Positions 13,224-49,045 of a stretch of 64,000 bases of DNA are shown piece after piece. Both the position numbers and the translations under genes were made by a program. The notes beneath the pieces were generated by a model that searched no databases, was not told the DNA's origin, and saw only the letters and a list, made by a program, of their open reading frames with translations. The stretch's first letter is position 1. Every line of letters begins with the position of its first letter. Source of the DNA: Planctomycetota bacterium (GTDB taxonomy: Bacteria; Planctomycetota; UBA1135; GCA-002686595); contig JAEUHZ010000013.1 of NCBI GenBank assembly GCA_016795205.1, positions 1 to 64,000 on the forward strand, given 5' to 3'.

Positions 13224-13838
13224 ATGGGACGCACCTCCGACGCCCGCGACCGCCTGCTCGCCGCCGCGCTCGACCGCATCTGGTCGCAGAGCTACGGGTC
13301 GATCAGCGTCGACCAGATCTGCGAGAGCGCCGGGGTCAAGAAGGGCAGCTTCTACCACTTCTTCGCCTCGAAGGAGGACCTCGCGGTCGCGGCCTTCGAG
13401 CAGCACTGGCAGCGCGACATCCAGCCGATCGTCGACCGCGTGTTCCACCCGGATCGCACGCCGATCGAGCGGCTCGAGGGCTGGTGCCAAGCCATCTACG
13501 AGGAGCAGAAGCAGCGCTTCGCGGAGCGCGGGCACGTGCCCGGTTGCCCGTTCGCTTCCCTCGGATCCGAGGTCGGCACCTGGAACGAGCGCCTGCGCCG
13601 CAAGGTCGAGGACCTGCTCGAGCGCGGTCTCTTCCAGCTCGAGCGCGCGCTGCGCGATGGGCAGCGAGACGGCTCCCTGGTCGTCGCCGATCCCGCGGCG
13701 CGGGCCCGCGCGCTGCACGACATGGCCTTGGGCGCGATGCTGCGCGCCAAGGTCGAGAACGACCCCGAGGTCCTGCGCGGGCTGCGCGCGCAGGTGCTCG
13801 ACCTGGTCCGCGCCCCGCAACGCGTGGGCGAGACCTGA
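13224..13838 (+). CDS. TetR-family transcriptional regulator of the efflux operon
   Basis: 204 residues from the ATG at 13224. The N-terminal helix-turn-helix is typical: RDRLLAAALDRIWSQSYG, then ISVDQICESAGVKKGSFYHF and FASKEDL. The C-terminal ligand-binding part (~55-204) contains a WNERLRRKVEDLLERGLFQL stretch like that of other TetR_N/TetR_C proteins. It lies 65 nt before the adaptor gene of an RND pump and just after a palindromic operator, so autoregulation and repression of the pump, relieved by a pump substrate, is the likely role. The ligand cannot be predicted. Confidence 0.9.
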   Translation: MGRTSDARDRLLAAALDRIWSQSYGSISVDQICESAGVKKGSFYHFFASKEDLAVAAFEQHWQRDIQPIVDRVFHPDRTPIERLEGWCQAIYEEQKQRFAERGHVPGCPFASLGSEVGTWNERLRRKVEDLLERGLFQLERALRDGQRDGSLVVADPAARARALHDMALGAMLRAKVENDPEVLRGLRAQVLDLVRAPQRVGET

Positions 13839-13903: not shown

Positions 13904-15076
13904 ATGCGAACCCGATTCCAGCCCTCCCACGCCGCCCTGGCTGCCGTCCTGGCCCTCACGCCCCTCGCCGCGGGCTGCGGACCCTCCGCCAAGGCGGGAC
14001 CGACCGGCGGCCCGCCCCCCGCGCCGCTCGTGACGGTCGCGGCCGCGGACGCCCGCGAGCTGGCCGAGACGGCCGACTTCACCGGCCGGCTGGGCGCGGT
14101 CGACGACGTCGAGGTCCGGCCGCGGGTGAGCGGACACCTCGAGGCGGTCCACTTCGAATCGGGCCAGCTCGTTGAGCGCGGAGACGTGCTCTTCACGATC
14201 GACGCGCGCTGGTACCAGGCGGCGCTCGCCGCGGCCGAGGCGGCGGTCACCCAGGCCAAGGTCCGCGCCGAGAGCGCCGACCGCGAGGCCGCGCGCTCCG
14301 AGCAGCTCCTCGCGGCGCGCGCGATCTCGGCCGAGGAGGCCGAGAGCCGCGCCGCCCGCCAGGCCGAGGCGCGCGCCGCGCTGCTCTCCGCCGAGGCGGC
14401 CCGCGACGTCGCGCGGCTCGACGTCGAGTTCACGCGGGTCACGGCGCCGGTCGACGGGCGCGTGTCGCGGGCCTTCGTCACGCCGGGCAACTTCGTGAGC
14501 GGCGTGCCGGGCGCGAACGCGCTCCTGACCACGATCGTGTCCGTCGACCCGATCCACGCCTACGTCGACCTGGACGAGAACACGCTGCTCCGCATGCAGG
14601 AGCTGCTCGCCGCCCGCGCGCTGCCAGCCGACGAGCAGGGCCGTGTGCGCGTCGAGGTCGGACTGGCTGACGAGCCGGGCTTTCCGCGCGCCGGCGTGAT
14701 CGAGTCGTTCGGGAACCGGCTCGACCCGGCCACGGGCTCGATCCTGATGCGGATCCTGCTCGAGAACCCCGACGGCGAGCTCGTTCCCGGCCTGTTCGCG
14801 CGCGTCCGCGTCCCGGTCTCGGCGCGCAAGCCCACCGTCCTGGTCGAGGCGCGTGCGATCGGGACGGATCAATCGCAGAAGTTCGTGTACGTCGTGGGCC
14901 CGGACGGGATCGCGCAGTATCGCCCGGTCCAGCTGGGCCCGGTCGTCGAGGGCCTGCGCGTGGTGCGTGCTGGCCTCGAGCCCGGCGAGCGCGTGGTCGT
15001 GAACGGCCTCCAGCGGGTCCGTCCCGGCGCGCCGGTCACGGCGGAGGCGCCCCACGACGCCACCCAGACGCGCTGA
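13904..15076 (+). CDS. RND efflux periplasmic adaptor (membrane fusion protein), lipoprotein
   Basis: 390 residues, ATG at 13904. The N-terminus is a lipoprotein signal with lipobox LAAGC and the lipidated Cys at residue 25. HlyD/AcrA-type order follows: first barrel-sandwich half (DFTGRLGAVDDVEVRPRVSG, HLEAVHFESGQLVERGDVLF), an Ala/Glu-rich alpha-hairpin (~105-165), the second half (VTAPVDGRVSRAFVTPGNFV) and a beta-barrel plus membrane-proximal domain ending in the GLEPGERVVVNGLQRVRPGA signature. It links the inner-membrane pump to the outer-membrane channel and acts in the periplasm. Encoded 21 nt upstream of the pump gene. Confidence 0.93.
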   Translation: MRTRFQPSHAALAAVLALTPLAAGCGPSAKAGPTGGPPPAPLVTVAAADARELAETADFTGRLGAVDDVEVRPRVSGHLEAVHFESGQLVERGDVLFTIDARWYQAALAAAEAAVTQAKVRAESADREAARSEQLLAARAISAEEAESRAARQAEARAALLSAEAARDVARLDVEFTRVTAPVDGRVSRAFVTPGNFVSGVPGANALLTTIVSVDPIHAYVDLDENTLLRMQELLAARALPADEQGRVRVEVGLADEPGFPRAGVIESFGNRLDPATGSILMRILLENPDGELVPGLFARVRVPVSARKPTVLVEARAIGTDQSQKFVYVVGPDGIAQYRPVQLGPVVEGLRVVRAGLEPGERVVVNGLQRVRPGAPVTAEAPHDATQTR

Positions 15077-15097: not shown

Positions 15098-18000
15098 ATG
15101 AACTTCTCGCACTTCTTCGTGCGCCGGCCGATCTTCGCCGGCGTCCTCAGCGCGATCATCTTCCTGATCGGGCTCCTCGCCATGGGCCGCCTGCCGGTCA
15201 GCGAGTACCCGGAGGTCACGCCGCCGACCGTGGTCGTGCGCGCCCTGTACCCGGGCGCGAACCCCAAGACGATCTCCGAGACGGTCGCCGCGCCACTCGA
15301 GCAGGCGATCAACGGCGTCGAGAACTCGATCTACATGTTCTCGCAGTCGACCAGCGACGGGGCCATGTCGCTGACGGTCACCTTCAAGCTCGGCACCGAC
15401 GTCGACCAGGCGCAGGTGCAGGTCCAGAACCGCGTCAGCCAGGCGCTGCCGAAGCTGCCCGAGGAAGTGCGGCGCCTGGGGGTCACGACCGTCAAGCAGT
15501 CGCCGGACCTGACCTTGGTCGTGCACCTCTTCTCGCCGGCGGGCCGCTACGACGAGGTCTACGTCCGCAACTACGCCACGCTGCAGGTCAAGGACGTCCT
15601 GGCGCGCCTGCCGGGCGTCGGGCAGGTCGAGGTCTTCGGCGGTGGCGACTACGCGATGCGGATCTGGCTCGACCCCGAGCAGATCGCGGCGCGCGGCCTG
15701 ACGGTCGGGGACGTGATCGCCGCGATTCGCGAGCAGAACGTGCAGGTCGCGGCGGGCGCCGTGGGCAAGCCGCCGTCGACGCAGAGCGCTTTCGAGCTGC
15801 AGGTCGAGGCCAAGGGCCGACTCGTGGACGAGGAGGAGTTCCGCGACATCGTCGTCAAGCAGGGCCCGCACGGCGAGAAGGTGCTCTTGCGCCACGTGGC
15901 GCGGGTCGAGTTGGGCGCGGGCGAGTACGCGCTGCGCTCACTGCTCGACAACCGCACGGCGGTCGGCATCGCGATCTTCCAGCTCCCGGGCAGCAACGCG
16001 CTGCAGATCTCGCAGGACGTGCGCGCCGCGATGGCCCAGCTCGCGGCGAACTTCCCCCAGGATCTCGACTTCGACATCGTCTACGACCCGACGGTCTTCG
16101 TCCAACGCTCCATCGACGCGGTCGTGCTCACGCTGCTCGAGGCGATCGTGCTCGTGGTCCTGGTCGTGATCCTCTTCCTCCAGACCTGGCGCGCCAGCCT
16201 GATTCCGCTGGCGGCCGTGCCCGTCTCGCTCGTGGGGACGTTCGCGGTCATGCAGGCCTTGGGCTTCGGCATCAACGCCCTGTCGCTGTTCGGCCTGGTC
16301 CTCTCGATCGGCATCGTGGTCGACGACGCGATCGTGGTCGTCGAGAACGTCGAACGCAACATCCGCAACGGACTGTCGCCGGTCGAGGCCACCAAGAAGG
16401 CCATGACCGAGGTCACGGGCCCGATCATCGCCACCGCGCTGGTGCTCTCGGCGGTCTTCATCCCGACCGCCTTCATCAGCGGGCTCACGGGGCAGTTCTA
16501 CGAGCAGTTCGCGATCACGATCGCCATCTCGACGATCATCAGCGCCTTCAATTCGTTGACGCTGTCGCCGGCTCTCTCGGCGCTCTTGCTGCAGCCCCAC
16601 GGGGCCAGGAAGGACGCCCTGACCCGCATCATCGACGCCTTGTTCGGCTGGTTGTTCCGGCCGTTCAACTGGCTGTTCGAGCGTGGTTCGGCCTGGTACG
16701 GGCGCGCGGTCGGGCGCGTCATCCGTCTGGCCGCGATCGTGCTCGTCGTCTACGGCGGGCTCGTGGCGGCCACCTACTGGAGCTTCCAGAAGGTCCCCAC
16801 GGGTTTCGTCCCGACGCAGGACAAGCAGTACCTGATCGCGTTCGCCCAGCTCCCGGACGCCTCGTCCCTGGAGCGCACCGACGCAGTCATTCGTCGGATG
16901 TCCGAGATCGCGCTGGCCCACCCCGGCGTGGCCTCGAGCGTGGCGTTCCCGGGCCTCTCGATCAACGGCTTCAGCGTCAGCCCGAACTCGGGCATCGTCT
17001 TCGTCGGCCTCGACCCGTTCGAGGAGCGCCAGTCCCCCGAGCTCGCGGGCCTCGCCATCGCCGGCGCGTTGAACCAGAAGTTCGCGGTCATCCAGGACGC
17101 CTTCGTGGCGGTGTTCCCGCCGCCGGCGGTCAACGGTCTGGGACAGATCGGTGGCTTCAAGTTGTTCGTCGAGGACCGCGCCGACCAGGGGCTCGATGCG
17201 CTCTTCGGGGCGACCTGGGGGCTGATCGGGCGCGCCGCGCAGGCGCCCGAGCTCGACCCGCGCGCCACCTTCTCGACCTTCCAGGTCAACGTCCCGCAGC
17301 TCGCCGTCGACGTCGATCGCGACAAGGCCAAGACGCAGGGGGTCCCGCTGGCCGGCGTCTTCGAGGCCATGCAGGTCAACCTCGGGTCGCTGTACGTGAA
17401 CGACTTCAACCGCTTCGGACGCACGTACCAGGTCGTGGCCCAGGCCGACGCACAGTTCCGCGACGAGCCCTCCGACATCACCCGCCTCAAGGTGCGCAAC
17501 GATCGCGGGCAGATGGTCTCGCTGGGCACGCTGGTCGACGTGCGCGAGTCCTACGGCCCGGATCGAGTCAGCCGCTACAACGGCTACCCGGCGGCCGAGA
17601 TCAACGGCGCGCCGGCTGCGGGCTTCAGCTCCGGCCAGGCCGAGGCCGCCATGGCGCAGCTCGCGCAGGAGCACCTGCCGCCGGGCATGAAGTTCGAGTG
17701 GACCGACCTGACCTACCAGAAGATCCTGGCCGGCAACACGGCGGTCTACGTCTTCCCGCTCAGCATCCTGCTCGTGTTCCTGGTGCTCGCCGCACAGTAC
17801 GAGAGCTTCCGGATGCCGCTCGCGATCCTGCTCATCGTGCCCATGTCGCTGCTCTCGGCGATGACGGGCGTGATCCTGACCGAGGGCGACAACAACGTGT
17901 TCACCCAGATCGGCCTGATGGTGCTGATCGGTCTGGCGGCCAAGAACGCGATCCTGATCGTCGAGTTCGCCAAGGTGAAGCAGGACGAGGGCCTCGATCC

Positions 18001-19744
18001 CGCTTCCGCCGCGATCGAGGCCGCCAAGCTGCGTCTGCGGCCGATCCTCATGACGAGCATCGCGTTCATCGCCGGCGTGTTCCCGCTGGTCATCAGCGAG
18101 GGCGCCGGCTCCGAGATGCGCCGCGCGATGGGCGTCGCGGTGTTCGCCGGCATGATCGGCGTCACGTTCTTCGGCCTGCTCTTGACTCCGCTCTTCTACG
18201 CCCTGCTCCTGCGCATCGGCTGGAAGCGCAGTACGTCAGCGCGGGACGAGCCCGCGCCGGTTCCGCCGCGCGTCGACGGCGAGGGCGGCGCGCACGGCCT
18301 CCCGCAGGCGGCCGGAGGCGCCGCGGCCGTCCTGGTGCTGTCGTCCCTGCTGCTCGCGGGTTGCGCAGCGGTCGGTCCGGACTACCAGCGTCCCGAGACG
18401 GCCGCGGTGTCCGCCCCGGACTGGCGTGACGCCCCGGACCTGCCGCCCAGCGCGGCGGAGATCCCGCGCGGCGCCTGGTGGCGCGTGTTCGACGATGCGG
18501 GCCTCGACGCGCTCCAGGAGCGGGTGGCCGCTGCGAACCACGACCTCAAGGCGGCGCTGGCGCGGATCGAGCAGGCGCTGGCCGGCACCAAGGCCGTGCG
18601 CGCGAACTTGTATCCCAGCATCTCCGCGAACCCGACCTGGACGCGCACCGAGTACTCGCCCAACGCCGGACTGCCCTTCTCGTCCGCGACGGTCTCCGAC
18701 ATCCGCGTCCCGGTCGACCTGGCCTGGGAGATCGACCTGTGGGGACGCGTGCGCCGCGCCGTCGAGGCCGGCGAGCGCGAGACCGACGCGCTGGCCGCGG
18801 CGTACGAGTCCTTGAGGCTCTCGATCCACGCCGAGGTCGCCGCGAGCTGGTTCACGCTGCGAGCGCTGGACTCGGAGGTCGACGTGCTGCGCCGCTCGGT
18901 GGACGTGCGCCGCAACGCGCTCGAGATCATCAGCTCGCGCCTGGCTGCGGGCACTTCGAACGAGCTGGACCTGGCGCGTGTCGAGAACGAGGTGGCGATC
19001 GCCGAGGCCGATCTGGCCGACGTGACGCGCCAGCGCGAGGCCCTGCGCAACGCGCTGGCGGTCCTGGCCGGCGAGGCGCCCAGCGGCTTCCAGGTCGAGG
19101 TCGGTGCCTGGATCGCAGCCGAGCCGCCGGCGATCCCGGCCGGGTTGCCCAGCGAGTTGCTCGAGCGCCGGCCGGACATCGCGGCCGCCGAGCGCGAGCT
19201 GGCCGCCCGCAATGCGCGCATCGGCGTGGCGGTGGCCTCGTACTTCCCGAGCATCCGCCTGACCGGCAGCGCCGGGTACCAGAGCGGCGAGCTCGACGAC
19301 CTGTTCACGGCCGAGAGCCGCATCTGGAGCCTGGCGCCGTCGATCTCGATCCCGATCTTCGAAGGCGGCCGGCTGGAGGCCGAGGAGCAGCGGGCCCGCG
19401 CGGCGTACGAGGAGAGCCTCCAGCTCTACCGGCAGCGCGTGCTGCTGGCGTTCCGCGAGGTGCAGGACGCGCTGACCGCGACGCGACTCTTCGCCGAGCA
19501 GGCCGCCGCGCAGGAGCGCGCGACCGCGGCGGCCAAGCGCGTGTCGGATCTCTCGCGCACGCGCTTCGAGGCCGGCTTCGTGAGCTTCCTGGACGTCGTC
19601 GACGGCGCGCGCGCGCGCCTCGCGGCCGAACGTGCCAGCGTGCAGCTCCAGGGCCGCCGCTTCGTGAACGCGGTCGCGCTGGTGCGCGCATTGGGCGGCG
19701 GCTGGGACGCGACCGACCTGCCGCGGCTCGCGGCCGGCGGCTGA
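15098..19744 (+). CDS. RND multidrug efflux pump fused to outer-membrane channel lipoprotein
   Basis: One uninterrupted frame of 1548 residues. Residues 1-~1050 are a complete HAE1/AcrB-type pump: N-terminal MNFSHFFVRRPIFAGVLSAI, the TM4 proton-relay pair in GIVVDDAIVVVENVERN (Asp409/410) and Lys949 in LAAKNAILIVEFAK. After TM12 come ~20 charged and Gly-rich residues, a hydrophobic stretch (AAVLVLSSLLLAGC, Cys1089) and a full OprM/NodT-type outer-membrane factor of ~460 residues (GPDYQRPE, VDLAWEIDLWGRVRRAVEAG). The junction has no stop and no ATG; the only in-frame start-like codon before the lipobox is a GTG within the hydrophobic core. The hydrophobic stretch could be a thirteenth membrane span, with signal peptidase II freeing a lipidated channel. 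Normally these are two genes. Fusion could also be an assembly error removing a stop. Confidence 0.88.
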   Translation: MNFSHFFVRRPIFAGVLSAIIFLIGLLAMGRLPVSEYPEVTPPTVVVRALYPGANPKTISETVAAPLEQAINGVENSIYMFSQSTSDGAMSLTVTFKLGTDVDQAQVQVQNRVSQALPKLPEEVRRLGVTTVKQSPDLTLVVHLFSPAGRYDEVYVRNYATLQVKDVLARLPGVGQVEVFGGGDYAMRIWLDPEQIAARGLTVGDVIAAIREQNVQVAAGAVGKPPSTQSAFELQVEAKGRLVDEEEFRDIVVKQGPHGEKVLLRHVARVELGAGEYALRSLLDNRTAVGIAIFQLPGSNALQISQDVRAAMAQLAANFPQDLDFDIVYDPTVFVQRSIDAVVLTLLEAIVLVVLVVILFLQTWRASLIPLAAVPVSLVGTFAVMQALGFGINALSLFGLVLSIGIVVDDAIVVVENVERNIRNGLSPVEATKKAMTEVTGPIIATALVLSAVFIPTAFISGLTGQFYEQFAITIAISTIISAFNSLTLSPALSALLLQPHGARKDALTRIIDALFGWLFRPFNWLFERGSAWYGRAVGRVIRLAAIVLVVYGGLVAATYWSFQKVPTGFVPTQDKQYLIAFAQLPDASSLERTDAVIRRMSEIALAHPGVASSVAFPGLSINGFSVSPNSGIVFVGLDPFEERQSPELAGLAIAGALNQKFAVIQDAFVAVFPPPAVNGLGQIGGFKLFVEDRADQGLDALFGATWGLIGRAAQAPELDPRATFSTFQVNVPQLAVDVDRDKAKTQGVPLAGVFEAMQVNLGSLYVNDFNRFGRTYQVVAQADAQFRDEPSDITRLKVRNDRGQMVSLGTLVDVRESYGPDRVSRYNGYPAAEINGAPAAGFSSGQAEAAMAQLAQEHLPPGMKFEWTDLTYQKILAGNTAVYVFPLSILLVFLVLAAQYESFRMPLAILLIVPMSLLSAMTGVILTEGDNNVFTQIGLMVLIGLAAKNAILIVEFAKVKQDEGLDPASAAIEAAKLRLRPILMTSIAFIAGVFPLVISEGAGSEMRRAMGVAVFAGMIGVTFFGLLLTPLFYALLLRIGWKRSTSARDEPAPVPPRVDGEGGAHGLPQAAGGAAAVLVLSSLLLAGCAAVGPDYQRPETAAVSAPDWRDAPDLPPSAAEIPRGAWWRVFDDAGLDALQERVAAANHDLKAALARIEQALAGTKAVRANLYPSISANPTWTRTEYSPNAGLPFSSATVSDIRVPVDLAWEIDLWGRVRRAVEAGERETDALAAAYESLRLSIHAEVAASWFTLRALDSEVDVLRRSVDVRRNALEIISSRLAAGTSNELDLARVENEVAIAEADLADVTRQREALRNALAVLAGEAPSGFQVEVGAWIAAEPPAIPAGLPSELLERRPDIAAAERELAARNARIGVAVASYFPSIRLTGSAGYQSGELDDLFTAESRIWSLAPSISIPIFEGGRLEAEEQRARAAYEESLQLYRQRVLLAFREVQDALTATRLFAEQAAAQERATAAAKRVSDLSRTRFEAGFVSFLDVVDGARARLAAERASVQLQGRRFVNAVALVRALGGGWDATDLPRLAAGG

Positions 19745-42786: not shown

Positions 42787-44565
42787 TCAGTGTCCGAGGA
42801 TCTCCAGCTCTGGCCCCAGCCTCGCTGCCCGCACCACGCGCCACACGAACCACGCCTCGGGCGCATGCGGCCCATCGAGCATGTACTCGATGGGCCTCGA
42901 CCACGCATCACGAGCAGGCAGCGGATCGAACACCGCAAGCGGCGGCGCGCGCCGTACCAGCTCGTCGCGCACCGCCCGCAGGACCCGGCGTCGCCCGTCG
43001 CGGTGGCGCTCGAGCACGACCGAGCCCGTCCCGAGGGCGTCGACCCAGGCAGCCGGATCACGCGCGAACTCTGCGCGCGCCTCGGGAGACAGCAGCGGCA
43101 GCTCGCGGAGGTCCTGGCCCAGCCGTGCCCGCGTCGCCGCATCGAGGCTCAGCGTCGCGGCCTGCCACGGCACGAAGTACATCCGTGCCGAGACGAATTC
43201 GGCGCGGAACGCCGCGTCGCGCGGCACGAGCGGCAACTGCACCGTCGGGTCGATGCGGAAGGGGCCGCGCTCGGGATGCTCCTCGATCCAGCGCGCGACG
43301 AGCTCCTGCGTGTCGTCGCGCGTCCGCAGCACGGCGATCTTCACGGCGATCGCCGCCTGGGCGAGCACCAGCACGACCGCTCCCGCGAGCGCCACGCGCT
43401 GCGGGAGGCTGGGGCGAGCGCTGGCGACGCGTGCGACTGCCAACGACGCCAGGACCGCGAGGTAGGGCACGAGCGGCAGCCAGAAGCGCTGGAAGCTGTT
43501 CGAGTACAGGCCGAACACGAGCACATGGGCGAGCGGGTGCGCGCCCACGACGAGCAGCGGAACCCACGGCTCCGCCCCGGAGCGGCCGCGGATCGCCGCG
43601 ACCGCGAGCGCCGCGAGGCCCGCGGCGGCGAGCACGGTGAGCACGGGCTCGTAGTCGCGCAGCGCGCGGGCCAGGCGTGCGAAACCGCCGCCGTCGAAGA
43701 AGCCCGCGTCGACCTGGTGCGCGCCCATGCCCAGGAACGACAGCAGCCTGTCGGCGAGCGTCGCGCCCTGCTCCAGGTCCGGCAGGCCCTCGCCGCGCAG
43801 GAGCAGCGCGAAGGACGCCAGGCACAGTGCGGCCGCGGTGCACAGGCCCAGGAACGGAGCACCCCACCGCGGGCGAGCGCACCACCACCAGGCTGCGGCG
43901 ACCGCGGCGAAGGCGCAGGCGCCGCTGTGCAAGGTCCCCAGGGCCAGCGCCGCCAGACCGCCGGCCAGCACGAAGTCGCCGAAGCGCCCGGTCGAGCGAG
44001 CGCGCAACGAGGCGGCCACGCAGGCCACGGCCAACGTGGTGACGACCGCGTGCGGTCGCCCCATGGACGAGTACCACACCGCGAGCGTGCTCGTGCCGGC
44101 CAGGAAGGCCGCGAGCAGCGCCCAGCGGGCGCCGACGAGGGGGCGCGCGAGCAGCCAGGTCAGAGGGACCATGAGCGCCGAGAAGGCGGCGATGATCCGG
44201 CGGATCCCGAGCACGTCGTGCGCGACCGACGCGCGCAGCGTCTCGAGGCTCGGGTCCTCGGGCACGGGCGCGACCCCGACCAGCGCGTGCGCGGCGAGGC
44301 CGAGCAGTCGCGGGTAGCAGCGCGCGAGCTGGGCCTCCTCAGGGGTCACGGTCTCGCCGCGCGCCACCTGGAGCTGGAGCCACAGGATCTTCTCGTCGCC
44401 CTGCGGGTAATGCGGCAGGTGCCAGTCGAGGCCCACGCAGTGCAGCGCCAGCGCCAGCAGCGTCAGCGCCGCGAGCGCGCCCCACGTCGCCCGCTCCCCC
44501 GCGCCGCTGGCGACCCCGTGAGGCACGGCGCGGCCGGTCTCAGGCCCCGGCGCGCGCGCTGCCAT
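42787..44565 (-). CDS. Polytopic membrane protein, GT-C glycosyltransferase-like
   Basis: About 592 residues with ~10-12 membrane spans over the first ~400, then a soluble C-terminal domain. After the first span (WGALAALTLLALALHCVG) the external loop reads DWHLPHYPQGDEKILWLQLQ, the acidic-pair position of PMT/ArnT-like (GT39/GT83) enzymes that use polyprenyl-phosphate sugars. SSMGRPHAVVTTLAVACV is also typical of the group. Start uncertain: the ATG at 44565 overlaps the DUF2007 gene by 26 nt; a GTG at 44526, 14 nt after that gene's stop, is the alternative. Donor and acceptor unknown. Confidence 0.7.
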   Translation of the reverse strand: MAARAPGPETGRAVPHGVASGAGERATWGALAALTLLALALHCVGLDWHLPHYPQGDEKILWLQLQVARGETVTPEEAQLARCYPRLLGLAAHALVGVAPVPEDPSLETLRASVAHDVLGIRRIIAAFSALMVPLTWLLARPLVGARWALLAAFLAGTSTLAVWYSSMGRPHAVVTTLAVACVAASLRARSTGRFGDFVLAGGLAALALGTLHSGACAFAAVAAAWWWCARPRWGAPFLGLCTAAALCLASFALLLRGEGLPDLEQGATLADRLLSFLGMGAHQVDAGFFDGGGFARLARALRDYEPVLTVLAAAGLAALAVAAIRGRSGAEPWVPLLVVGAHPLAHVLVFGLYSNSFQRFWLPLVPYLAVLASLAVARVASARPSLPQRVALAGAVVLVLAQAAIAVKIAVLRTRDDTQELVARWIEEHPERGPFRIDPTVQLPLVPRDAAFRAEFVSARMYFVPWQAATLSLDAATRARLGQDLRELPLLSPEARAEFARDPAAWVDALGTGSVVLERHRDGRRRVLRAVRDELVRRAPPLAVFDPLPARDAWSRPIEYMLDGPHAPEAWFVWRVVRAARLGPELEILGH

Positions 44566-44842
44566 CCGCGGTCGGCCCCGGTTCCTCACGGCGGACCACG
44601 GCGTCCTCGCCCCAGGCCTCGACGAGCGCGGCACGGGCTGCCGCTCGGGCGCCGCGTGGGACCAGCAGGTTCCCGCGGCGCAACTGCCCGTAGGCCGCCG
44701 CGCCGAACTCGGCGATGTCGAAGTCGGGCCCGTGCACGAGGGACGGGATCCCGGCCTTGGCCAGCACGTCCCGCGCGAGCTCGGCCTCCACCGTGTCGAC
44801 GCCCACGAGGACCACGTCGAACTCGTTCTGGAAGCGCTTCAT
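44540..44842 (-). CDS. Small DUF2007-like protein
   Basis: 100 residues, ATG at 44842. FDVVLVGVDTVEAELARDVL, AKAGIPSLVHGPDFDIAEFG and LLVPRGARAAARAALVEAWG match the pattern of DUF2007 (putative signal-transducing) proteins: a strand, an EAE-containing helix, a short ligand-like loop, then a VP-x-xxAxxA helix. Cytoplasmic. A TAGCCT hexamer 8 nt before the ATG suggests leaderless expression; the glycosyltransferase-like gene overlaps or follows directly. Function unknown. Confidence 0.75.
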   Translation of the reverse strand: MKRFQNEFDVVLVGVDTVEAELARDVLAKAGIPSLVHGPDFDIAEFGAAAYGQLRRGNLLVPRGARAAARAALVEAWGEDAVVRREEPGPTADGSARAGA

Positions 44843-44850
44843 CCGTTCCC

Positions 44851-44856
44851 AGGCTA
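44851..44856 (-). promoter_or_regulatory. TANNNT (TAGCCT), 8 nt before the DUF2007 start
   Basis: Minus-strand hexamer with no Shine-Dalgarno between it and the ATG at 44842. Candidate -10 of a leaderless mRNA. Confidence 0.4.
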
Positions 44857-44980
44857 CCGCGGCGTGCCGCGCCTTGCCGGTGCGGCGGACCTGCGAGTAG
44901 CCTGTTCGCCCCCGAAACTCGGCCGGGCCACGCTCTGGGCGCCGCATCCGGCCCCTGGGCCGACCCGAACACCCCCACCC

Positions 44981-45733
44981 ATGAAGATCGTCGCCACCTT
45001 CAAGCGCGTCCCCACCACCGAGGCCCAGGCCAAGGTCGGCGGCGACGGCAAGACCTTGGACCCGGCCGGCTGGCAGTACATGGCGTCGTTCTACGACGAG
45101 ATCGCGGTCGAGGCCGCGTTGCAGACCAAGGAGAAGCACGGCGGCGACGTGACCGTGCTGACGCTCGGGCCGAGCGAGGCGTCCAAGGAAGTGCGCGAGT
45201 TCCTGGCGCGCGGCGCCGACAGCGGTGTGATCCTGAAGGATGCCGACCCCGCGGCGCGCGACCCGCGCTGGACCGCCAAGGCGCTCGCTGCGAAGGTCCA
45301 GGCGCTGGGCGCCGACGTGGTGTTCACCGGCCGCGTCGCCACGGACCGCGACAACGCCGCGGTCGGCCCGATGTTGGCAACCTACCTGGGCTGGGCCTGC
45401 GTCACCGAGGTCGTGGCGCTCGAGATCTCCGGCGCGGCGGGCACGGCGCAGCGCGAGACCGAGCACGGCGTGGAGACGGTCGCATTCTCGCTCCCGGCGG
45501 TGATCACCTGCAACAAGGGCTTGAACGAGCCGCGCCGCCCGAATCTCAAGGGCATCATGGCCGCCAAGTCGAAGCCGATCGCCGAAGAGTCGCCGTCGGA
45601 CGCCGGCGCACAGGCGGTCGTGCTCTCCGTCGAGCTCCCCCCGGCCCGCAAGGCCGGCCGCATCGTGGGCGAGGGCCTTGCGGGCGTCCCCGCGCTGGTC
45701 GACGCGCTCAAGAACGAAGCCAAGATCCTCTGA
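44981..45733 (+). CDS. etfB: Electron transfer flavoprotein subunit beta
   Basis: 250 residues, ATG at 44981. Starts MKIVATFKRVP as usual for EtfB; the AMP-binding segment includes TGRVATDRDNAAVGPMLATY and the C-terminal half has ITCNKGLNEPRRPNLKGIM, where the family has the recognition-loop region L-x-EPRYP-x-LKGIM. With EtfA it carries electrons from acyl-CoA and related dehydrogenases to the quinone pool. No dehydrogenase or ETF-QO gene is adjacent. A TAGCCT at 44898-44903 could be the -10 of a leadered transcript. Confidence 0.94.
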   Translation: MKIVATFKRVPTTEAQAKVGGDGKTLDPAGWQYMASFYDEIAVEAALQTKEKHGGDVTVLTLGPSEASKEVREFLARGADSGVILKDADPAARDPRWTAKALAAKVQALGADVVFTGRVATDRDNAAVGPMLATYLGWACVTEVVALEISGAAGTAQRETEHGVETVAFSLPAVITCNKGLNEPRRPNLKGIMAAKSKPIAEESPSDAGAQAVVLSVELPPARKAGRIVGEGLAGVPALVDALKNEAKIL

Positions 45734-45743
45734 GAACAGCGCC

Positions 45744-46697
45744 ATGAGCACGATCCTCGTCTTCGTCGAGCAGTCCCACGGCGCGCCGCGGCGCGCGAGC
45801 CTCGAGTGCCTCTCCGCCGCGCGCGCCACCGGGCTGTCCGTGGCCGCCGTCGTCGCCGGCGAGGGCGCCGAGCAGGCCGCGGCCGGGCTCGGCGCCTTCG
45901 GCGCCACGCGGGTGGTCGCGTTGACCGGCGCTGCGCGCTGGAGCGCCGACGCGGTGGCGTCCGACGTCGCCGCCGTCGCGCGGGAGTTGGGCGCGAAGGC
46001 CTTCCTCGCCAGCGCCACCTCCACGGGCAAGGACATCGCCCCGCGGGTGGCCGCGCTGCTCGATTCGACCCTGCTTTCCGATTGCACGGCGCTCACCGCC
46101 GAGGGCGGCACGCTCGTCGCCACGCGTCCGTGGCTCGCGGGCAAGGCGCTCGCCAAGGTCACCTCGACCGCGCCGGTTTTCTGCGCCACGACGCGCCCGA
46201 ACGTGTTCCCGGCTGCGGAATCGGGCGGGACGGCAGAGGTCGTGTCGCGCCCGGCCTCGAACGGCGGGCGCGCCAGCGTGAGCGCCGTCGCCGAGAAGTC
46301 GGGCGGCAAGCTCGACGTGAAGGAAGCCCCGATCGTCGTTTCCGGCGGGCGCGGGCTGCGTGGGCCCGAGAACTTCCACCTGCTCGAGGAGCTGGCGGCG
46401 GCCTTCGGGTCGGCGGCGACCGGCGCGTCGCGCGCGGTGGTCGACGCCGGGTGGCGCCCGCACGCCGAGCAGGTCGGACAGACCGGCAAGACGGTCAGCC
46501 CCAAGCTCTACGTGGCGGTCGGCATCTCGGGCGCGATCCAGCACCTGGCCGGCATGCGCACGTCGAAGGTCATCGTGGCGATCAACAAGGACGCCGACGC
46601 CCCGATCTTCAAGATCGCGGACTTCGGGCTGGTGGGCGACGCGCTCGAGGTCCTCCCGGCGCTGACCAAGGCCGTGGCCGCGGCGCGCGCGCGCTGA
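45744..46697 (+). CDS. etfA: Electron transfer flavoprotein subunit alpha
   Basis: 317 residues, ATG at 45744, 10 nt after etfB. N-terminal domain [21 protein letters not shown]-terminal FAD domain with [40 protein letters not shown] and [18 protein letters not shown], then [20 protein letters not shown]. These are the standard FAD-contacting segments. Forms a heterodimer with EtfB. Confidence 0.95.
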
Positions 46698-46765
46698 ACG
46701 CTGCGGCTGGACCGGGGAGCGCCGCGCTGCACACCCGTCCCGGCGATCCGCGGCGCGGTCCCGGG

Positions 46766-46771
46766 TAGTCT
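46766..46771 (+). promoter_or_regulatory. TANNNT (TAGTCT), 6 nt before the start at 46778
   Basis: No ribosome-binding sequence lies between this hexamer and the GTG. Candidate -10 of a leaderless mRNA. Confidence 0.4.
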
Positions 46772-46777
46772 CCGCGC

Positions 46778-49045
46778 GTGAGCTTGGACGACGCCATCCC
46801 CCGGGGTCTCCCGCGCCGCGTGCTGCTGTGCGTGCTGGCGCTGGGAGCGCTGCTGCAGGCCGTGATCGTGGCCGATGGCTTCGCCTCGAACCCGCTGGCG
46901 CGCAATCCGCTCAACGACGCGGCCGAGTACTGGAGCTGGGGCGGCGAGATCGGTCGTGGACACCTCGTCGGCTCGACGCCTTTCCTGTCCGCGCCGCTCT
47001 ATCCCTACGTCGTGGGTGGGGTGCGCGCACTGGGCGGCGGCCTGCCGGCGCTGGCGGCGCTGCAGGTCGCGCTCCACGTGCTGACGGCCGCGCTGGTGGC
47101 ACGCTGCGCCGGCGCGCGCTTCGGTGCGCCGGCCGGGATCCTGGGCGCGGCGCTGTACCTGATCCTCCAGGATCCGGCCTTCCACACGGGCCGCGTGCTG
47201 AACTGCACGCTGCAAGCGCTCGCGACCGCCTGGATCTGGGAGCGCGCGATCGCCGCCGGCGAGCGTCTCGACCTGCGCCGCGCGCTGGGTCTGGGGGCCG
47301 CGATCGGCGTCGGGGCGCTGGCGAACCCGACCTACGCACCGCTCGCGGTGGCGCTCCCCGCGTGGCTCGTCTGGAAGCACGGGTTCGAGGCCGTGGTCGC
47401 GCGCCGGGCTGCGGCCTGCGCGCTGACGGCGGTGCTCGCCATCGCGCCGGCGACGCTGCACAACTGGCTCGCCGCGCGCGAGTTCGTGCCGCTCAGCGCG
47501 CAGGCCGGCTTGGGCTTCTACCACGGGAACCAGCCCAGCTCGCAGGGGCTCTTCACGGCCGCGGCGGGCGTGTCGACCGACCGCGTGAAGCAGAACCTGG
47601 ACGCGCGCGCGGCGGTGCGCGACGAGACCGACGGCACCTGGAAGGACACGAGCCGCGTCTACCTGCGCAGGGGCCTGGGGTTCTGGGCCGCCGATCCGCT
47701 GGCCGCGGCCGTCCTGACCGCGAAGAAGGTCTGGTGGTTCTTCGGCGGCCGCACCTACGGCGACGTCTACGTCGCGGAGCTGGAGGTCGAGGACGGCGCC
47801 GCACGCGCGCTGGCCTTGGCGCCGATGCCCGTGGCCTGGTGGACGATGCCGGGGGCACTGGTGCTCCTGGCGCTGGCGCGTCGGCCGCGTGAGCACGCGC
47901 CGGAGATCCTGCTGTGGCTCGCCACGTTCCTGGTCGTGGCTGCGTTCTGGTACTCGCCGCGCTACCGCTTGCCCGTCGTGCCACTCGTGGCCGGCTTCGG
48001 CGGCGCGGCGCTCGTGACGCTGGGTGCCTGGCAGCGCGACCGCGCCCGCGCCGCCGCGGTCGCGCTGGCGCTGGCGGCCTCGGCGGCCACGGCCGCGGCG
48101 CTGCGCGCCAGCGGTCGCGACGATCCCGCGGCGTTCAGGCCGCAGTTCGAGCTCCAGATGGGCGACGCGTACCTGGCCGAGGAGGCGCTGCCCGAGGCCG
48201 CCGCGCGCTACGAGCGCGCAGCCTCCTTGGGCGCGCCCGGAGCCGGCGCGCGGCGCGCGGACGTGCTCCGTCGCATGGGCCGCACCGAGCAAGCGCTCGA
48301 CGCGCTGCGGCGCGCGGTCGCAGCCGATCCGCGCAACCCGGTGGCGCGCCGCGGCCTGGCCATCGCGCTCGTGCAGGCCGGCGATCTGGCCGGCGCGCGG
48401 GCCGAGTTCGAGGCGGCGATCGCCAACGACGCGCACGATTGGGAGGCCTGGTCGGGGCTCGGCAACGTCCGGCTGGCGCAGGGCGACGCGCGCGGCGCGG
48501 CCGACGCCCAGCGGCACGCGCTGGCGCTGGCTCCGGGCTTCGTGAACGGGCACGCCAACCTGGCGCGCGCCCTCGAGGCGCTGGGCGAGCTCGACGGGGC
48601 CGAGTCGGCGTTCCGCGCCGCGCTGGCCATCGACCCGGGCTCGGTCAACGCCTTGGGCGGCCTGGGCGATCTGCTCGTGGCGCGCGGACGTTGGCGCGAG
48701 GGGCTCGAGCGCCTGCGCGAGCTGCGCCGGCGCGAGCCCACGAACCGCGGGCTGGCGCTGACCCTGGCCTGGTGGCTCGCCGCGTGCCCCGACCCCGCGG
48801 CGCGCGACCCGCGCGAGGCCTTGGCGCTCGTGGCGCGCGAGCTCGAAGCGCCCGTGGACGACCCACTCGTCCTGGACTCCCTGGCCGCCGTGCTGGCGGC
48901 CAACGGACGCTTCCAGGAGGCCCACGCGCTGGCGGAGCGCGCGCTCGCGCGCCTGCGCAGCACGGGGCCGAGCGAGCCGATCCCCGAGGTCGAAGCGCGC
49001 GCCGCGCTGTATGCCGCCGGCCGGGCCTTCACGCTCCCGCCTTGA
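46778..49045 (+). CDS. GT-C-like membrane protein with C-terminal TPR domain
   Basis: 755 residues from GTG at 46778. The first ~440 hold about nine or ten membrane spans. After the first span ([20 protein letters not shown]) comes [20 protein letters not shown] and then [20 protein letters not shown], the DAxxY...PLYPY pattern of GT39/GT83-like transferases. From ~455 to the end are tetratricopeptide repeats ([40 protein letters not shown]). The fusion suggests a membrane glycosyltransferase that docks proteins or substrates through its extracytoplasmic TPR part. It follows etfA by 80 nt and seems unrelated to it. Confidence 0.8.

Follow-up and report, generated by a model that had tools for sequence, protein, structure and literature searches.

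A planctomycete gene encoding an RND efflux pump and an outer-membrane channel as one polypeptide with a lipobox at the junction

Tripartite efflux requires pumps and channels that are matched and that sit in two different membranes. The window analysed here is a stretch of 64,000 nucleotides of planctomycete DNA, and its positions 15098-19744 (+ strand) hold a single frame of 1548 codons, running from ATG to TGA with no internal stop, that encodes a complete RND pump followed by a complete outer-membrane channel. A hydrophobic segment ending in a lipobox joins the two halves. We give an even chance to the wider reading that this genus has, at least twice independently, made pump and channel one precursor, in which the last segment of the pump would double as the lipoprotein signal of the channel and signal peptidase II (SPase II) would mature a polyprotein destined for two membranes at a 1:1 ratio set by gene structure. 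If this is true, the cell can recognize and cut a lipoprotein signal that lies internally, behind a 12-span transporter, the 1:1 ratio is genetically fixed, and the roles of stoichiometry and of channel lipidation become testable with one gene.

Results

A complete pump and a complete channel in one frame

The block to which the fused gene belongs, and the parts of the gene itself, are as follows.

13224..13838, + strand: TetR-family regulator, with which the conserved block begins (NCBIfam TetR models; the congener's orthologue, in the same position, is 77% identical)
13904..15076, + strand: periplasmic adaptor, MexE/OqxA-like, with lipoprotein signal peptide LAAGC (MexE the best NCBIfam model; RND_mfp over cut-off)
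15098..18217, + strand: RND pump part, residues 1-1040, MexF/OqxB/AdeG type (profile matches, solved relatives)
18218..18313, + strand: predicted cytoplasmic linker, residues 1041-1072 (without a start codon, low-complexity, disordered, near-neutral evolution, in-frame gaps)
18314..18361, + strand: predicted 13th hydrophobic helix and putative internal lipoprotein signal sequence, residues 1073-1088 (hydropathy 2.24, AlphaFold2 helix 1073-1087)
18350..18364, + strand: lipobox L-L-A-G-Cys1089 (PS51257-like pattern; identical in the congener)
18362..19744, + strand: outer-membrane channel part, NodT/OprN type, residues 1089-1548 plus stop (TIGR01845 at 400 bits, model pLDDT, Foldseek OprN)

The pump half matches the profile ACR_tran (PF00873) over residues 3-1037 at 1160 bits and NF000282 (RND_permease_1) over residues 4-1037 at 1428 bits, against a cut-off of 1250, and the OqxB model gives 1388 bits. 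The solved structures nearest to it (8yr0, 7wlv, 8zxs and 7cz9) are stand-alone chains of about 1038-1067 aa. The channel half matches TIGR01845 (NodT) over residues 1081-1535 at 400 bits, against a cut-off of 210, and OEP (PF02321) matches it twice. The last stretch of strong hydrophobicity covers residues 1074-1092, with a mean Kyte-Doolittle value of 2.24 that lies within the range of the pump's own transmembrane (TM) helices. The lipobox LLAGC at 1085-1089, which fits the pattern [LVI][ASTG][AGS]C, closes this segment, and Cys1089 is the sole cysteine of the 1548-residue protein. A sequence-only reading of this DNA had claimed a pump running into a channel as a single polypeptide, with a hydrophobic junction ending in a lipobox, and both claims stand. 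The same reading had called the pump AcrB-type; it is an RND pump, of the MexF/OqxB/AdeG branch and not AcrB proper. The protein of a congener (genome G001) has two additional cysteines, both in the pump.

Upstream, the adaptor finds its best match in the MexE model, at 348 bits and below the equivalog cut-off of 714, and scores 258 bits with RND_mfp (cut-off 95). It is 75% identical to the congener's adaptor and 44% identical to that of Acinetobacter baumannii AdeFGH, and 21 bases separate its gene from the pump start. The congener has the identical layout of regulator, adaptor and fused pump and channel. Thus, with two structural genes the block would supply all three parts of a tripartite system. 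Scans for promoters and terminators gave nothing above chance.

The fusion is present in two species

At 73% GC, other frames are often open by chance, so an open frame alone is weak evidence for a fusion. The earlier reading had suggested looking in relatives for the same domain order with the junction intact, and it occurs in the congener, a second species of the genus, where the fused protein has 83% identity over residues 1-1547 and no stop. The two genomes are separately assembled, and their linkers differ by in-frame gaps only. The pump frame has no alternative stop. Between the end of TM12 and the cysteine, the window has a single ATG, GTG or TTG codon, a GTG nine codons before Cys1089 that is too close to it to serve a signal peptide. 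The congener has none of these codons from -64 to +64 codons around the lipobox cysteine, and the channel is thus without an ordinary start.

Next, we compared substitution rates between the window and the congener (NG86). The pump had a dN/dS of 0.19, the channel one of 0.165 and the linker, which is 43% identical between the two species, one of about 1.0. The lipobox region gave 0.18, a value drawn from a small sample of 21 codons. By this comparison, the lipobox is constrained in both species even though the adjacent linker drifts.

That the true stop and start were lost, through an error of sequencing or assembly or in a pseudogene under decay, would fit with both genomes being draft MAGs and with the frequency of chance-open frames in DNA of this composition. 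We consider it very improbable, given that two separate assemblies carry the fusion with nothing other than in-frame gaps between their linkers and that purifying selection acts on pump and channel alike. Furthermore, the two other forward frames are free of stops through the window's linker, so one indel there could not conceal a pump stop. On these stop-free frames and the agreement of the congener, a frame error was rejected; a channel start hidden in another frame was also rejected, there being no usable ATG in the junction. Taken together, the lack of another pump stop and of an ordinary channel start, the agreement of two assemblies and the pattern of selection lead us to regard the fusion as real.

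Other RND pumps fused to channels

To see how common such fusions are, we surveyed 61 related genomes. Ninety-five NodT channels exceeded the cut-off, and for 12 of them the frame spans >=1300 codons. We checked each of these 12; three proved to be true fusions: the window, the congener and a locus in genome G089. The long frames at the nine other loci are chance-open high-GC frames in which pump and channel lie in different frames, and they were rejected. Two further fused genes were as follows.

G000:C58, about 43510-48003 (L054:3511-8004): second fusion in the same genome as the window (TIGR00914, OEP)
G089:C86, L052:1914-6455, - strand: third fusion (RND_permease_2/MdtC-like pump and NodT channel)

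In the second fusion, a CusA/CzcA-type pump (TIGR00914) precedes an OEP channel of more divergent sequence, and the lipobox reads LAAGC. The counterpart of this fusion in the congener (G001:C16, L223) is 77% identical in the pump, 48% in the 25-residue junction and 56% in the channel and has the lipobox LVAGC. It shares with the window the domain order and the lipobox kept at the junction, whereas the RND family is another one and the junction is only about 20 residues long, directly after TM12. The second fusion is apparently of independent origin. The third fusion, from another family of the order, has the junction TFAGC. Thus, three unrelated RND types are fused to a channel in the same order, each keeping a lipobox. 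That two unrelated fusions occur in one genus, both kept across species, suggests that the arrangement is useful and no accident. In the G089 fusion, a TTG 36 codons before the cysteine could be an internal start.

A 2203-aa frame at G000:C39 was rejected as a fusion because a second RND pump begins inside a chance-open frame. This locus (L226:3023-9942) holds two different RND pumps in tandem, and a matching pair seems to be present in the congener (G001:C54).

Bacteroidota databases may contain CusA-TolC proteins of about 1450 aa; these would resemble the protein described here in joining an RND pump to a TolC-family domain and differ in being metal pumps. Every Bacteroidota plasmid example that we inspected had separate genes, with no CusA-TolC fusion found, and a search of a library of open-access papers found no report of a natural RND-OMF fusion.

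Predicted topology places the lipobox outside the inner membrane

AlphaFold2, given residues 948-1548 and 44 channel relatives, predicted a disordered linker at about 1042-1075, a helix at 1073-1087 that stops just short of Cys1089, a loose tail up to about 1126 and a confident channel (pLDDT mostly >90) whose first ordered helix starts at residue 1127. In a Foldseek search with the channel model, OprN (5iuy) ranked first, with a TM of 0.86 on the target, followed by CusC and OprM. The channel had been described as OprM-type; it is a complete channel, as claimed, with OprN as its nearest fold and OprM ranked lower. OprN is the partner of MexF, so the fold of the channel fits the identities assigned to pump and adaptor.

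In RND pumps, 12 membrane spans leave both termini on the cytoplasmic side. A helix after a cytoplasmic linker must therefore be oriented N-in/C-out. The lipobox would then face outward from the inner membrane, which is where SPase II acts, and the channel would lie in the periplasm. The thirteenth membrane span that had been proposed earlier is backed by hydropathy and the AlphaFold2 helix.

Discussion

Candidate routes from one precursor to two proteins

We consider it probable that the gene encodes an RND-OMF precursor that is cut by SPase II after translocation, freeing pump and channel. One precursor would be translated from the fused gene, and its 12-span pump would insert with the C terminus in the cytoplasm. 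The linker would lead to the 13th helix, which would act as the channel's lipoprotein signal sequence and move the channel to the periplasm. Lgt would then lipidate Cys1089, and LspA would cut just before it. The released channel would travel to the outer membrane as a lipoprotein, leaving a pump with a short extra C-terminal helix and thus 13 spans, and the equal amounts of pump and channel would assemble trimer on trimer (3:3). The genome encodes one LspA (SPase II; G000:C80) and one Lgt (G000:C60), both over cut-off. It has been shown that CusC lacking its lipidation feature misfolds its barrel (PMC4486845). Lipidation and SPase II cleavage at Cys1089 are thus the best reading of the predicted topology, the presence of LspA and Lgt and the misfolding of CusC. 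The sequence-only reading holds as to one continuous polypeptide with a 13th span and a lipobox, while we infer the cleavage, the equal product amounts and correct sorting.

Cleavage by SPase II has to be weighed against several features of the junction. The short positively charged N-terminal n-region usual in SPase II lipoproteins is absent from this internal segment, which follows 12 TM helices, and upstream of the hydrophobic stretch no positive charge comes closer than about 15 residues. The lipobox could also persist merely as the homologue of an ancestral lipoprotein signal. The near-neutral drift beside it speaks against such inertia, albeit from 21 lipobox codons in two draft genomes, and a lipobox is retained in both copies of the genus's second fusion and in G089. 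That the motif is kept in three unrelated fusions also bears on an uncut protein, in which TM13 and the flexible tail would be a permanent tether from the pump to its own channel, because such a tether would not require the motif. A tether between a trimeric pump and a trimeric channel (3:3) is formally possible, and cleavage being our interpretation, so is an intact form. The tether would have to pass the periplasmic part of the pump, about 70 A, the gap bridged by the adaptor and half of the channel's alpha-barrel, up to the equatorial ring. It consists of about 38 residues, from Cys1089 to the first ordered channel helix (1127), and spans at most about 135 A when fully stretched. The alpha-barrel measures 100 A, and the ring lies mid-barrel (PMC8277102). 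By these dimensions the tether would be at or beyond full stretch. A permanent tether thus looks geometrically strained in the model, and we judge it unlikely.

Two products could also arise if a cytoplasmic protease cut the linker or if the channel had an internal start at a nonstandard codon such as CTG. A disordered, unconserved linker should be easy to cut, CTG codons occur upstream of the lipobox in both species, and the G089 and C58 fusions have in-frame TTG, GTG or ATG codons upstream of their lipoboxes, so internal starts are possible there. However, the unconserved linker holds no kept protease site or ribosome-binding site, and the standard start codons near the cysteine are confined to the GTG of the window, with none within 64 codons in the congener. 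We regard these routes as quite unlikely.

The proposed maturation by SPase II has a parallel in fbcH, the cytochrome b/c1 precursor of Bradyrhizobium, a membrane polyprotein that is cut at an internal signal into two subunits. In fbcH, as proposed for the fused protein, a polytopic membrane protein is followed by an internal signal sequence and a signal peptidase cut that yields two subunits of one complex. They differ in that fbcH is processed by signal peptidase I, belongs to a respiratory complex and leaves both products in the inner membrane.

Unfused relatives and origin

The nearest unfused systems all have a pump stop and a start of the channel's own. The closest pump found, about 70% identical, is from Verrucomicrobia (L074 and L075), with a channel of about 41% identity; A. 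baumannii AdeFGH is 65% identical in the pump and 38% in the channel, and Cupriavidus/Mycetohabitans systems are 65-66% and 41-43% identical. Pump and channel are separate in AdeFGH, Verrucomicrobia and Cupriavidus, in line with the earlier statement that tripartite pumps normally use separate genes. A channel start at this place in relatives had been named as evidence against the fusion; such starts exist only in these more distant unfused relatives, whereas the congener's junction is intact. By this comparison, the channel's own start in distant relatives shows what was probably the ancestral state. Among genome_contigs loci, 67 have a pump immediately before a related channel, and in 66 of these a pump stop also precedes the channel. 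The exception, L077 (a Syntrophaceae MAG), was rejected as a fusion and read as a frame slip at the pump end, because its channel retains an ATG behind an RBS-like GGAGG.

The fused system resembles MexEF-OprN, OqxAB and AdeFGH in its MexE-best adaptor, its pump of the NF000282/OqxB group and its OprN-fold channel, and differs from them in having one gene where they have separate pump and channel genes. It probably works like these systems and descends from their kind. A. baumannii AdeFGH has the same gene order, adaptor-pump-channel, but there TAA ends the pump gene, and GGAGG and another start codon come after it. In both A. baumannii and Verrucomicrobia, pump and channel share a reading frame though separate. 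At the junction, A. baumannii has ...PHDH-stop-GGHLVITSK..., and the fused gene of the congener has ...TPDHGAGGHGLKAAGG..., with a nearly equal length to the lipobox. The old stop and GGAGG ribosome-binding site are perhaps now Gly/Ala codons, although this one comparison is only suggestive. In Verrucomicrobia, the channel likewise lies directly downstream of the pump, but it has a stop before it and its own start, and its signal ends in FGQ or LAQ with no lipobox. Channel lipidation has thus been lost or gained among close relatives.

One A. baumannii plasmid of 135 kb (L152, NZ_CP098797.1) is recorded as carrying adeFGH with the regulator adeL; RGI names its pump adeF and its adaptor adeG, which are apparently swapped.
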